A stretch of DNA of 64,000 nucleotides from Burkholderiales bacterium (lineage in GTDB: Bacteria > Pseudomonadota > Gammaproteobacteria > Burkholderiales > Burkholderiaceae_E), in the NCBI GenBank assembly GCA_947487165.1, contig CANKWX010000005.1, forward strand, positions 1 through 64,000, written 5' to 3'. Shown here one piece after another: positions 23,300 to 28,053 of the stretch. The translations under genes and the position numbers were made by a program. The notes under the pieces were generated by a model. That model ran no database searches. It was not told the origin of the DNA and was given only the letters and a program-made list of their open reading frames with translations. How positions within the stretch are numbered: position 1 is the stretch's first letter; each line of letters opens with the position of its first letter.

Positions 23300-24208
23300 T
23301 TAGTCGCCGATCCGATCTGCATCCAGACCCATTGCGGCCCGCAGACCTTCGAACTGCTCTGCCGAATCGAAGCGAATGACCAGTCGGCCCTTGCCACGGG
23401 CATTGGCCTGCAGCTCGACCGCCGCCTGAAGGTGTTCGGCAATCAGCTCCTGCAGCCGCTGCAGGTCGGGATCGATCTGGCGCCGCGATCCGCCGGAGCT
23501 CGTGCCTGACTGCGAGGGCTGTGACTGCTGCTGCACCACCAGCCGCTCGGTTTCACGGACCGACAGCCGCTTTTCGACCACCTGATTCGCTGCCAGGATC
23601 TGCTCGGCGCGCTCGAGCGCCAGCAGGGCCCGAGCGTGACCCATCTCGAGGTCGCCGGCCAGCAGCATGGTCTGTACCGGCGCGGCCAGATTCAACAGCC
23701 GCAGCAGGTTTGAGGTGGCGCTGCGCGAGCGTCCGATCGCCTCGGATGCCTGCTCGTGGGTGTACTGGAACTCGTCGAGCAGACGGCGAATCGCCTGCGC
23801 TTCTTCAAGGGGATTGAGGTCCTCGCGCTGGATGTTCTCGATCAGGGCCATTGCCAGCGCATTCTGGTCGGAGACATCGCGCAGCATCACCGGCACCTCG
23901 TCGAGTCCGGCCAGCCTGGCTGCCCGAAAGCGACGTTCGCCGGCGATGATCTCGTAGCGATCGGCGGCCAGGGGGCGCACGACGATCGGCTGCATCATGC
24001 CGTGCTGGCGGATCGATGCGGCAAGTTCCTGCAGCGAGCTTTCATCCATGCGGGTGCGCGGCTGATAGCGCCCGGCCTGCAGCTTGTCGAGCGGCAGCGT
24101 CGAGGGCGCCCGAATGCCTCCGGCATCCATCTCGGCCGATGGCTCGAAGCTCTCGCCGAGCAGGTTCTCGAGTCCGCGGCCGAGGCCTTTTGGTTTTTTC
24201 GCAATCAT
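23300..24208 (-). CDS. parB: Chromosome-partitioning protein ParB
   Basis: ParB binds parS, uses CTP to slide and spread, and guides origin segregation with ParA. The 302-aa protein has the N-terminal ParA-stimulating region MIAKKPKGLGRGLENLLGES, the CTP-binding motifs AGERRFRAARLAG and ENIQREDLNPLEEA, a helix-turn-helix (YTHEQASEAIGRSRSATSNL) and a C-terminal dimer domain. ATG at 24208 was chosen by this N-terminus. It lies downstream of parA, with the cognate parS sites about 4 kb away upstream of mnmG. It normally precedes atpI in this order; here about 10.7 kb separates them. Confidence 0.97.
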   Translation of the reverse strand: MIAKKPKGLGRGLENLLGESFEPSAEMDAGGIRAPSTLPLDKLQAGRYQPRTRMDESSLQELAASIRQHGMMQPIVVRPLAADRYEIIAGERRFRAARLAGLDEVPVMLRDVSDQNALAMALIENIQREDLNPLEEAQAIRRLLDEFQYTHEQASEAIGRSRSATSNLLRLLNLAAPVQTMLLAGDLEMGHARALLALERAEQILAANQVVEKRLSVRETERLVVQQQSQPSQSGTSSGGSRRQIDPDLQRLQELIAEHLQAAVELQANARGKGRLVIRFDSAEQFEGLRAAMGLDADRIGD

Positions 24209-24272: not shown

Positions 24273-25043
24273 TCACATCGTCTTTGCGCGCTCGACCATC
24301 TCGGCACCGAACTCGAGATACGCCTTGGCGCCGCGCGACGCCGGGTCGAAGACCACACCCGGCAATCCATGGCTCGGCGCCTCGGCCAGCCTGACATTGC
24401 GGGGAATGACGGTGCGAAACACCTTGTCGCCGAAATGCTTCTCGAGCTGCGCCGAAACCTGCTGTGACAGGGTCATGCGCGGATCGAACATCACTCGCAG
24501 CAGTCCGATGACCTTGAGATTGCTGTTCAGATTGGCGTGAACTTTCTTGATGGTTGCCACCAGATCCGACAAGCCCTCAAGCGCAAAGTATTCGCACTGC
24601 ATCGGAATCACCACGCCGTGGGCGGCGCACAAGGCATTCAGGGTCAGCAGCGACAGCGCCGGCGGCGCGTCGATGAGGACGAAGTCGTACTGGTCGTCGA
24701 CCGCTGCGAGTGCGTCCTTCAGGCGAGTCTCGCGATGCTCGAAATCGATCAGGTCGATTTCAGCGCCGGCAAGTTCGCGGTTGGCCGGCAGGAGATGGTA
24801 GCCGGCAGCCTCGGCCCAGACGGTGGTCTCGTCAGCATCCGACATGCCGATGAGGACCTGGTAGACGGTGGTCTTGAGCGTGCGCTTGTCAATGCCGCTG
24901 CCCATGGTCGCATTGCCCTGCGGGTCGAGATCGACCAGCAGGACGCGCTGGCCGAGCTTGGCCAGGCCGGCGGCGAGGTTCACCGACGTCGTGGTCTTGC
25001 CGACGCCGCCCTTCTGATTTGCGATGGTGAAAATCCTGGCCAC
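24273..25043 (-). CDS. parA: Chromosome-partitioning ATPase ParA (Soj)
   Basis: ParA is a deviant Walker ATPase that binds DNA non-specifically and drives ParB-parS segregation. The 256-aa protein begins VARIFTIANQKGGVGKTTTS, with both lysines of the deviant Walker A, and contains VLLVDLDPQGNATMGSG and DFVLIDAPPALSLLTLNAL. The start is GTG at 25043. An upstream in-frame extension of 90 codons overlaps rsmG and shows no homology. It sits 52 bp after rsmG. Confidence 0.97.
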   Translation of the reverse strand: MARIFTIANQKGGVGKTTTSVNLAAGLAKLGQRVLLVDLDPQGNATMGSGIDKRTLKTTVYQVLIGMSDADETTVWAEAAGYHLLPANRELAGAEIDLIDFEHRETRLKDALAAVDDQYDFVLIDAPPALSLLTLNALCAAHGVVIPMQCEYFALEGLSDLVATIKKVHANLNSNLKVIGLLRVMFDPRMTLSQQVSAQLEKHFGDKVFRTVIPRNVRLAEAPSHGLPGVVFDPASRGAKAYLEFGAEMVERAKTM

Positions 25044-25095: not shown

Positions 25096-25857
25096 TCAGG
25101 CGGAGCGGGAGGGTGCAGATGTGGGCGCCGTTGCCGGTGCCCTTGCTGTCGCGGGCGCTTCGCCTTGTTGATCGGCAGCCTGCGGGGCCGATCGGCCGGC
25201 GTGTCGAATGAGCACAAGATGACGCTGCGCCGCGAGGAAGGGCACCTGCAGGGCTTCGATCTCGACCTGGCAATGAGTGGGCAGCTCGGCACATTCAGAC
25301 TCGAGACCGGCACGCTGGCCCTTCATAGCCGCCAGCAGCGTCGACGGCCCGATCAGACCGGACGCAGCGTCGACGAAGTCAGCCATCGACGCGAAGGCCC
25401 GGCAGATCACCAGATCGACCTGCCGAGTCAGTGCCTGGGCACGCCCAGCAAAGACCTCGACGTTTGTAAGCGCAAGCTCCGCGCAAGATTGCCGCTGGAA
25501 GGCGGCCTTCTTGCCAACCGGCTCGATCGACAGCACCTTGGCAGTCGGAAAGACGATCGCCAGCGGCAAGCCCGGCAGACCAGCGCCCGACCCGACATCG
25601 GCGATCGTTGCGCCAGACAAATCGATAGACCGGCTCAGCGGGGCGATGATCGCCAGTGAATCGAGCAGGTGCTGAATCAGCATCTGCTCCGGGTCTCTGA
25701 CAGCGGTGAGGTTGTAGACCGCGTTCCACTTGCTCATCAGCGACAGAAACGCCAGGAGCTTTTCCTGCACAGGCAATGCCAGGTCGAGACCAACTTGCGC
25801 AGCACCCTCCTGAAGTCGCTGCGCGAGATGAGGGAGGGTTTGACCGGCGGCTGACAT
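25096..25857 (-). CDS. rsmG: 16S rRNA (guanine-527-N7)-methyltransferase
   Basis: RsmG (GidB) methylates N7 of G527 in 16S rRNA using SAM. The SAM site IADVGSGAGLPGLPLAIVFP, the motif KWNAVYNLTAVRDPEQMLIQHLLDSL (key part NLTAVRDPEQMLIQHLLDSL) and LVICRAFASMADF are family features. With ATG at 25857 the protein is 253 aa, longer than the usual 205-230 because of an Ala/Pro-rich tail of about 35 residues (GEAPATARAPATAPTSAPSR). ATG at 25878 would overlap mnmG by 11 bases and is the alternative start. Confidence 0.95.
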   Translation of the reverse strand: MSAAGQTLPHLAQRLQEGAAQVGLDLALPVQEKLLAFLSLMSKWNAVYNLTAVRDPEQMLIQHLLDSLAIIAPLSRSIDLSGATIADVGSGAGLPGLPLAIVFPTAKVLSIEPVGKKAAFQRQSCAELALTNVEVFAGRAQALTRQVDLVICRAFASMADFVDAASGLIGPSTLLAAMKGQRAGLESECAELPTHCQVEIEALQVPFLAAQRHLVLIRHAGRSAPQAADQQGEAPATARAPATAPTSAPSRSA

Positions 25858-25867
25858 CGACGATCGT

Positions 25868-27760
25868 TCAGGCGGCATCTTGCGCAGCACCGGCCCGCAG
25901 TCGCTTGAGATGGACCAGCAGCAGCGAGACCGCTGCCGGGGTAATGCCTTGCATCCGCGAGGCTTGCCCGACGGTCTGCGGCCGATGCTGCGCCAGTCGC
26001 TGGCGCACCTCGACCGAAAGCCCTCGAACATCGGCGTACACGATATCGGTCGGAATCGGCTGATGCTCCTGATGGCTGACACGCTCGACCTCTGCCTGCT
26101 GCCGAACGATATAGCCCTGATACTTGAGCTGGATCTCTACCTGCTCGGCAACCGCCTGATCGGTCGCGCCAGGCCCTGTCGCCTCGATCACCGCGCGATA
26201 CGCGACGTCGGGGCGGCGGACCAAATCAGCGAGCGAGTATTCGCGCTCAATCGGCGCGCCCAGCAAGGCTGTGGCCCGCGCTTCATCGAGCACCTTGGGA
26301 TTGACCCAAGTACTGCGCAGGCGCTGCAGTTCGGTTTCGATCGCGTCCCGTTTACGGCAGAACGCGTCCCAGCGTCCATCGTCGACGCAACCAAGCGTTC
26401 GACCGATCTCGGTCAGACGCAGGTCGGCATTGTCTTCGCGCAGACTGAGCCGATATTCCGCCCGGCTGGTGAACATCCGATAGGGTTCAGCGACGCCCCG
26501 CGTGATCAGGTCATCCACCAGCACGCCGAGATAGGCCTGGTTGCGAGCCGGGCACCAGGCATCACGCGACTGGGTCTGCAAGGCGGCATTGATACCAGCG
26601 AGCAAGCCCTGAGCCGCCGCTTCTTCATAACCGGTCGTACCGTTAATCTGCCCGGCAAAAAACAAGCCGCTAATCGACTTGGTTTCGAGCGATGCCTTCA
26701 GCGCGCGTGGGTCGTAGTAGTCGTACTCGATCGCATAGCCGGGGCGAAGGATGTGGGCGTTCTCCAGACCGACCATCGACCGGACGAGACTGATCTGGAC
26801 ATCGAAGGGCAGGCTGGTCGAGACACCGTTGGGATAGAACTCGTGAGTGGTCAGCCCCTCAGGCTCGAGGAAGATCTGGTGCGATGTCTTGCTGGCAAAA
26901 CGGTGAATCTTGTCTTCAATCGATGGGCAATAGCGAGGCCCCACGCCCTCAATCACCCCGGTATACATGGGCGACCTGTCCAGGCCCGACCGAATGATCT
27001 CGTGCGTTTGTTCGTTGGTATGGGTGATCCAGCAAGGCATCTGACGCGGATGCTGCGCCGCAGTGCCCAGAAAGGAGAACACCGGAATCGGATCACTGTC
27101 GCCGGGCTGAATCTCGAGGCGAGCAAAATCAATTGATCGTCCGTCGATGCGAGGCGGCGTGCCGGTCTTGAGACGACCTTGTGGCAAGTTCAGATCTTTG
27201 AGTCGAGCGCCGAGCGACAGTGCGGGCGGATCACCGGCCCGGCCTGCTGAATAGTGATTCAGACCAACATGGATCAGGCCGTTCAAGAACGTCCCCGCAG
27301 TGACCACCACTGTTTGGGACTCGAATCGAATCCCGGTTTGTGTGACGGCGCCAATCACCCGATCACCCTGAACGATCAGATCATCGACAGCTTGCTGAAA
27401 GAGCCAAAGATTCGGCTGGTTTTCAAGGCGAGAACGGATGGCCTGGCGATAGAGCACACGGTCGGCCTGAGCGCGAGTCGCCCTGACCGCCGGACCCTTG
27501 CTGGAGTTGAGGATCCGAAACTGAATGCCAGCCTCGTCTGTCGCAGACGCCATGGCACCGCCAAGTGCGTCGACTTCTTTGACCAGATGACCTTTTCCAA
27601 TGCCGCCAATCGATGGATTACACGACATCTGGCCGAGGGTTTCGATGTTGTGGGTCAGCAGCAGAGTGCGGACGCCCATCCTCGCCGCCACCAGCGCGGC
27701 TTCGGTACCAGCATGGCCGCCACCGACGACGATGACGTCAAAACGCTCGGGAAAGTTCAT
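25868..27760 (-). CDS. mnmG: tRNA uridine-5-carboxymethylaminomethyl modification enzyme MnmG (GidA)
   Basis: MnmG, with MnmE, installs the cmnm5 group at the wobble uridine of certain tRNAs using FAD, NADH and methylene-THF. The 630-aa protein has the FAD site [20 protein letters not shown], the [20 protein letters not shown] signature, and the Cys-containing segment and helical C-terminal MnmE/tRNA domain ending in [14 protein letters not shown]. It is the first gene of the mnmG-rsmG-parA-parB group. A TATAAT box and a parS site lie directly upstream. Confidence 0.98.
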
Positions 27761-27797
27761 GGCAGTCGGGGCAGGGAATCAAACCAAGGGGAGGCGA

Positions 27798-27803
27798 ATT
27801 ATA
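27798..27803 (-). promoter_or_regulatory. Consensus -10 box of the mnmG-rsmG-parAB promoter
   Basis: On the minus strand TATAAT spans 27803-27798, 38 bases before the mnmG start. No good -35 hexamer is seen at 16-18 bp; that space is filled by the first parS palindrome (27809-27824). ParB bound there would be expected to compete with RNA polymerase. Confidence 0.65.
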
Positions 27804-27808
27804 GGCGC

Positions 27809-27824
27809 TGTTTCACGTGAAACA
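27809..27824. promoter_or_regulatory. parS centromere site 1 (perfect)
   Basis: TGTTTCACGTGAAACA matches the universal bacterial parS consensus at all 16 positions, inside a 20-bp perfect palindrome (27807-27826). It is the ParB-loading site and lies within the mnmG promoter. Confidence 0.95.
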
Positions 27825-27907
27825 GCCACTTCGACACTTTGGTCTTAGGTAACAGCACTCACCGGGACGCTCCGGGCCTCACATCACCGCTCATCACCCA
27901 GCCGGAA

Positions 27908-27923
27908 TGTTTCACGTGAAACA
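27908..27923. promoter_or_regulatory. parS centromere site 2 (perfect)
   Basis: This is a second perfect TGTTTCACGTGAAACA, 99 bp from the first, in the gap between mnmG and the GMC oxidoreductase gene. Confidence 0.95.
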
Positions 27924-28037
27924 GCTAATGGCCCAAGTCGAGCGTCAGCAGGAGCGCCGATGCAAAGCGCCTGACCTGGCCGGCCGATGTCGTCACTCAG
28001 CATCCCAGGCATTGGCGATCACCACAAACCCACCTCG

Positions 28038-28053
28038 TGTTCCACGTGAAACA
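28038..28053. promoter_or_regulatory. parS centromere site 3 (one mismatch)
   Basis: TGTTCCACGTGAAACA differs from the consensus at one base in the left arm. It lies 130 bp from site 2 and abuts the stop codon of the GMC oxidoreductase gene (28054). Confidence 0.88.

Follow-up and report, generated by a model that had tools for sequence, protein, structure and literature searches.

In a Burkholderiales bacterium, the putative centromere of the chromosome and the predicted promoter of the mnmG-rsmG-parA-parB operon meet in one short element. Within the window, which is the whole 64,000-nucleotide stretch of DNA analysed, a perfect parS site (parS1) is followed after 5 bp by a TATAAT hexamer that precedes mnmG. 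A parS with 0-1 mismatch is placed exactly 5 bp before TATAAT in 11 of the 12 genomes of the genus, the window's own included. The sites, the promoter motif, their overlap and its conservation are observed directly in these genomes. The conservation at the genus level is new and was not part of the initial annotation. Autoregulation of the operon by ParB is better motivated by it and plausible, and would probably be modest in size.

The parS cluster and the mnmG promoter candidate

The features of the region are collected in Table 1. The families of the four operon genes were assigned by Pfam and NCBIfam profiles. The genes all lie on the minus strand; about 10, 52 and 64 bp separate them. ParA and ParB are encoded together with the domains expected of a chromosomal ParABS system.

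Table 1. Features of the parS-mnmG region of the window
Feature	Position	Strand	Remarks
GMC oxidoreductase gene	29736-28054	-	upstream of mnmG and co-directional with it
parS site 3	28038..28053	.	one mismatch (TGTTCCACGTGAAACA); directly after the GMC oxidoreductase stop codon
parS site 2	27908..27923	.	perfect, 0 mismatches
parS site 1 (parS1)	27809..27824	.	perfect TGTTTCACGTGAAACA; overlaps the -35/spacer region of the predicted mnmG promoter
Spacer GCGCC	27804..27808	-	5 bp, between parS1 and the -10 element
-10 element TATAAT of the predicted mnmG promoter	27798..27803	-	37 bp before the mnmG ATG
mnmG (gidA)	25868..27760	-	TIGR00136, 893 bits
rsmG (gidB)	25096..25857 (start approximate)	-	TIGR00138, 138.8 bits
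parA, Walker ATPase	24273..25043 (start approximate, GTG assumed)	-	PF13614, 215 bits
parB	23300..24208	-	ParB_N, HTH_ParB and ParB_C domains; PF02195, PF17762, PF23552; TIGR00180

The 293-bp interval between mnmG and the GMC oxidoreductase gene houses all three parS sites. These canonical 16-bp palindromes span 245 bp (27809-28053) and carry 0, 0 and 1 mismatches, in agreement with the two perfect and one near-perfect sites that the initial annotation had placed upstream of mnmG. At up to 3 mismatches, 0.09 sites are expected in the window, and three sites were reached in none of 100 shuffles. At up to 2 mismatches, no further parS was found outside the cluster in the 3.78-Mb assembly. The change in site 3 has a symmetric form (T5C-A12G) that is tolerated by the B. 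cenocepacia ParBc1, according to the sections consulted of PMC5450999. The same contig carries dnaA at C5:85845, at a distance of about 58 kb from the three sites. Judged by their sequence, the adjoining parAB and the distance to dnaA, the three sites look like chromosomal centromere loading sites.

On the minus strand the order of the elements is parS1-GCGCC-TATAAT. When the -10 hexamer is set at -12 to -7, parS1 covers about -33 to -18 by our own count, and so takes in the 3' portion of the -35 region together with the greater part of the spacer. The overlap of a parS with the -35/spacer of a TATAAT promoter, as originally claimed for this DNA, is therefore borne out. Transcription is predicted to start near 27791, with a leader of about 31 nt. 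The exact TATAAT occurs as a single copy in the 64-kb window, both strands considered, and about 1.1 (1.08) copies are expected by chance; consequently, its place and conservation, and not its mere existence, argue for a promoter. No recognisable -35 hexamer precedes it (best match 2/6). The loss of the -35 was considered as a special mark of this promoter and ruled out: across 145 TATAAT-bearing upstreams of mnmG, in which some genomes figure twice, the match to TTGACA is likewise no better than in shuffles. A missing -35 is thus normal for promoters of this kind, and the mnmG promoter seems, from these upstream sequences, to form a class without it.

The overlap would be irrelevant if TATAAT were not the operative mnmG promoter and transcription started elsewhere, for example by read-through from the GMC oxidoreductase gene. 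The lack of a -35, a general promoter scan that called no site at parS1-TATAAT and the fact that no terminator-like site was called between the GMC oxidoreductase gene and mnmG all point in this direction. However, of 80 named Burkholderiales loci (the best 80 of more), 78 carry an exact TATAAT within 120 bp of the mnmG ATG, starting 35 to 106 bp before it, and all 12 genomes of the genus have one that starts 38 to 54 bp before the ATG. A start elsewhere is consequently judged improbable. On the mnmG start itself, a word search of the main text of a Cupriavidus tagRNA-seq paper (PMC7563307) returned neither gidA nor mnmG.

Conservation of the composite element within the genus

The MnmG proteins of the genus are 85-97% identical to that of the window. 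In the family sample, MnmG was matched in 72 of 74 genomes, weakly in two (G423, G448). The upstream set comprised 68 sequences, these two genomes and two others without the N-terminus being excluded, and the start was found in 67 of them (L123 out).

Among the 11 genus genomes with the overlap, the spacer reads GCGCC in ten and GCCCC in one. The mean pairwise identity, ungapped, amounts to 96% in parS1, 96% in the spacer and 100% in TATAAT. Upstream of parS1 it is 28% (120-60 bp), 32% (60-20 bp) and 39% (last 20 bp), which is near the random level, and in the 24 bp after TATAAT it is 50%. In the window's genome and the four genomes most closely related to it, a second parS lies 158-163 bp ahead of the ATG; in the remaining genomes it lies elsewhere or was not seen, with 4 of the 12 upstreams ending at contig edges within 500 bp. 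Among the sites seen under this limit, the promoter-borne parS alone holds its place genus-wide. Since parS1, the 5-bp gap and TATAAT are kept while the surrounding sequence and the remaining parS sites have shifted, the composite is the one fixed element of the region, and its conservation far beyond the flanks supports that the arrangement has a function. The fixed spacing is weaker evidence than might be supposed, because parS1 and TATAAT would each be conserved independently and a 5-bp gap seldom gains insertions or deletions.

In the twelfth genome of the genus (L115), parS lies 41 bp before TATAAT, without overlap. Several family members without the overlap likewise have GCGCC in front of TATAAT. 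The Burkholderiales MAG L004 and the genus member L113 have identical mnmG upstreams.

Position of parS relative to mnmG in other bacteria

The wider comparison was based on two samples. The first comprised 76 genera outside the family, one genome each, among the matches listed, together with 16 hand-picked family representatives, one per genus (92 genera in total). The second comprised 77 further genera, with the mnmG start found in 72. Outside the window's family, 100 of 147 genera (56/76 among the matches listed and 44/71) have a parS with up to 2 mismatches no more than 300 bp upstream of mnmG, a placement seen in 0 of 2960 shuffled upstreams. When up to 3 mismatches and 600 bp are allowed, a parS is present in 78 of the 80 named loci (best 80 of more).

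The gap between parS and the -10 element could be called in 98 genera, the family included. It measures 0 bp in 1 genus, 3-23 bp in 17, 24-44 bp in 38, 45-65 bp in 22 and 66-86 bp in 5, with a median of 38.5 bp; genus g2 was omitted since its TATAAT is too near the ATG for the -10 rule. Direct overlap (0-23 bp) is thus seen in 18 of the 98 genera. These rule-based calls are spread over 11 families, with an exact TATAAT in 6 of the 18 genera, from 2 families, and outside the exact TATAAT the automatic rule is uncertain. The comparison of 3-23 with 24-44 bp (17 versus 38 genera; binomial p 0.006, the genera being non-independent) suggests that overlap with the core promoter is, if anything, avoided among Burkholderiales genera. 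Overlap with the -35/spacer was found in 5 of the 80 named loci (L004, L017, L041, L068 and L080; best 80 of more). Across the order, parS is followed by TATAAT within 30 bp in 21 of 399 genomes, 11 of which have the pattern just before mnmG (the window counted, and also L089, whose mnmG start was located as L275). The chromosomal parABS loci of Burkholderiales resemble the window in carrying parS upstream and parB downstream of mnmG (the latter in 75 of 80 genomes checked), but differ in spacing, their parS lying mostly 24-65 bp upstream of the -10 (60/98) and that of the window 5 bp. In general, parS stays close to the mnmG promoter, in most cases on the upstream side of the core contacts of the polymerase, and sitting on these contacts is a minority arrangement. 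The initial annotation had proposed an alignment across relatives as a check of the overlap: the overlap stands within the genus but does not extend to most Burkholderiales genera with a callable parS-promoter pair.

This distribution bears on the possibility that the site serves the centromere only. The parS1 would then have landed on the promoter through the intergenic DNA available near parAB, with no meaningful regulation, and the overlap would be tolerated since ParB occupancy is brief and RNA polymerase competes easily. The many distances at which parS is found within 300 bp of mnmG are in line with this, and a chance overlap is not rare when three sites share a 293-bp gap (about one in three, by a rough estimate). 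In B. subtilis, genes near parS are unaffected by the loss of Spo0J, as summarised in the consulted part of PMC7022226. On the other hand, the overlap was kept in 11 of the 12 genus genomes though the flanks and the other sites moved. A purely centromeric role is a serious possibility, clearly short of an even chance.

The same distances touch on a positive effect, in which ParB bound at parS1 would aid initiation by an activator-like placement or through the local DNA topology. In most genera parS lies beyond the -35 on its upstream side, in the zone where activators bind, and VirB, a relative of ParB, relieves silencing (PMC10653881, consulted in part). However, within the genus the spacer itself is occupied by parS, and a protein bound there would normally keep the polymerase out; the chromosomal parS-promoter cases consulted (P. 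aeruginosa parS3/parS4) are cases of repression. Positive regulation is considered very improbable.

A helical phasing of the gap was also considered. In the first sample, the gap could be called in 61 of 92 genera and fell at 0-140 bp in 54 (among the matches listed plus the 16 representatives), and the Rayleigh R of 0.325 at 10.5 bp was the highest of nine periods tried. The phasing was dropped, as a replicate with period and direction fixed gave V = 0.126 and p = 0.15 (77 further genera, of which 72 gave the mnmG start, 37 a callable gap and 34 a gap of 0-140 bp). In genus g2 (L156, L160-L164, L169, L170), TATAAT starts 11-14 bp before the mnmG ATG and the mRNA would be nearly leaderless.

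In other loci, parS is at the same time an intrinsic terminator hairpin (L030, at -135 from the mnmG ATG, L047, L079, L081, L020, L242 and others). In all collected upstreams (some genomes entered twice), 357 parS were counted no further than 600 bp from mnmG, at up to 2 mismatches. At least 4 extra complementary flanking pairs extend 47 of them, about 1.4 being expected by our own estimate of 1 in 256, and on the mnmG strand 31 of these 47 are followed by a T-rich tail. Folding energies of -19.3 to -23.5 kcal/mol (z -5.8 to -7.6) were obtained for three examples, and in all five loci inspected the upstream gene runs in the same direction. Such sites are concentrated in Burkholderia, Paraburkholderia, Caballeronia and Trinickia, so that many share one ancestor, and also occur in Collimonas (L020), Undibacterium (L079) and genus g52 (L242). 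No description of a parS within a terminator was found in literature titles and abstracts, subscription papers being mostly outside the scope of the search. The parS1 of the window was rejected as a terminator hairpin: its fold beyond the parS stem is weak (-12 kcal/mol, z -2.4) and the T tail is missing.

Further placements were also noted. A parS with up to 3 mismatches lies inside the mnmG coding sequence at +1418, at the same base, in 34 of the 80 named loci (L008, L010, L030 and others; best 80 of more), mostly of the Burkholderia group, and four genomes of family f49 without an upstream parS carry one at about the same depth of mnmG. In L049 (Burkholderia sp. Bp8963), seven parS-like sites with 1-2 mismatches are arranged 357-375 bp apart between -3019 and -800 of mnmG, and L168 (G409) has eight in the 1.3 kb from -1905 to -616 plus one at -30.

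The linkage of the operon was compared between genera with and without parS, the mnmG-parB distances being taken from coordinates compared by eye. On the same contig and within about 7.5 kb of the mnmG start, parB is found in 37 of 37 genera with parS before mnmG and in 38 of 43 genera without one (up to 2 mismatches, 900 bp upstream). In the remaining five, parB lies on another contig (2) or 57 kb away (1), or has no match (2). The exact TGTTYCACGTGRAACA occurs elsewhere in 24 of these 43 genera. A parS at mnmG is thus ruled out as a condition for the linkage, and feedback by ParB is no requirement of this operon.

In the class, parS is followed by TATAAT within 25 bp in 55 of 274 genomes, the window's own included. 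None of 29 other class loci has mnmG on the parS-TATAAT strand; 26 show an open frame running through parS to a C-terminus, and in 24 of these the stop codon falls inside TATAAT. The bare pattern is consequently mostly an artefact there, and the overlap as a class-wide design was ruled out. Three of these loci, taken in full, resemble recF followed by gyrB, names given by our own reading of the sequence. In L340-L367, from other orders of the class, parS often falls within the last codons of the recF-like gene (FHVEHG...), whose stop codon is 38 bases from the start of parS in 24 of 29 loci.

Proposed feedback of ParB on its own operon

In this genus, parS1 may take a second role besides centromere loading, as it forms part of the one good candidate for a promoter of mnmG-rsmG-parA-parB. 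From the geometry, a ParB dimer on parS1 and RNA polymerase would be mutually exclusive at the promoter. When ParB rises, parS1 would be occupied longer and the transcription of the operon would decrease. The outcome would be a modest homeostatic negative feedback on parAB, with mnmG and rsmG carried along. The effect is expected to be partial, a few fold and not on/off, because ParB-CTP clamps slide off parS. The short intergenic gaps favour this feedback, as does the result that no TATAAT-like TA...T hexamer matching at 5/6 was found in the 250 bp before rsmG, parA or parB. We infer the use of the promoter, the presence of ParB on parS1 in the cell, a lowered initiation and a relevance to the ParB level from the sequence. 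That ParB at parS1 feeds back negatively and modestly on its operon is given an even chance. For a coupling of tRNA/rRNA modification to centromere occupancy, also anticipated by the initial annotation, the gene order is the one feature that speaks.

The closest known systems, as described in the consulted parts of the papers cited, differ from the window in instructive respects. The P. aeruginosa parS3/parS4 (PMC5521831) likewise combine a chromosomal ParB with parS in a promoter region near the origin, a location that the distance to dnaA would fit in the window, and ParB bound at these intergenic sites represses the adjacent PA0011 and PA0013 promoters. In the window, too, parS lies within the predicted promoter region of its putative target, 5 bp from the -10 and so in 11 of 12 genus genomes. 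Their targets are not the par operon, whereas parS1 is placed inside the -35/spacer of the promoter of the ParB-encoding operon. The RK2 KorB-OB system (PMC11790492) is alike in having a CTPase clamp of the ParB family whose operator can adjoin the core promoter; this proximal site, 4 bp upstream of the -35, gives 4- to 5-fold repression. It is a plasmid system with a locking partner, KorA. According to the same source, ParB-family clamps slide off their loading site, KorB alone represses weakly, and repression by chromosomal ParB is weak where seen. In class Ia plasmid par operons (PMC7022226, PMC8465637) a product of the operon also controls its own promoter, but the repressor is ParA, and chromosomal ParAs are without the N-terminal DNA-binding domain involved (PMC7022226). 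The gidA and parA promoters of P. aeruginosa were unresponsive to ParA/ParB in E. coli, as stated in an unpublished remark within PMC3909081.

For parS inside the mnmG promoter, no description was found in literature titles and abstracts, a search in which subscription papers lay mostly out of scope. In a further-reaching and more tentative reading, slightly below even odds in our estimate, the 27-bp unit is a centromere-promoter fusion: ParB would autorepress its own operon, and the output of parAB would report the free ParB per parS copies and thus the origin number.

With a parS embedded in the parAB promoter, cells would have a simple wiring to hold chromosomal ParB at a suitable level. 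The gap series present in Burkholderiales (5, 15, 26, 36 bp and more) may be seen as a set of natural constructs for the distance that a ParB loading site needs in order to silence a promoter.
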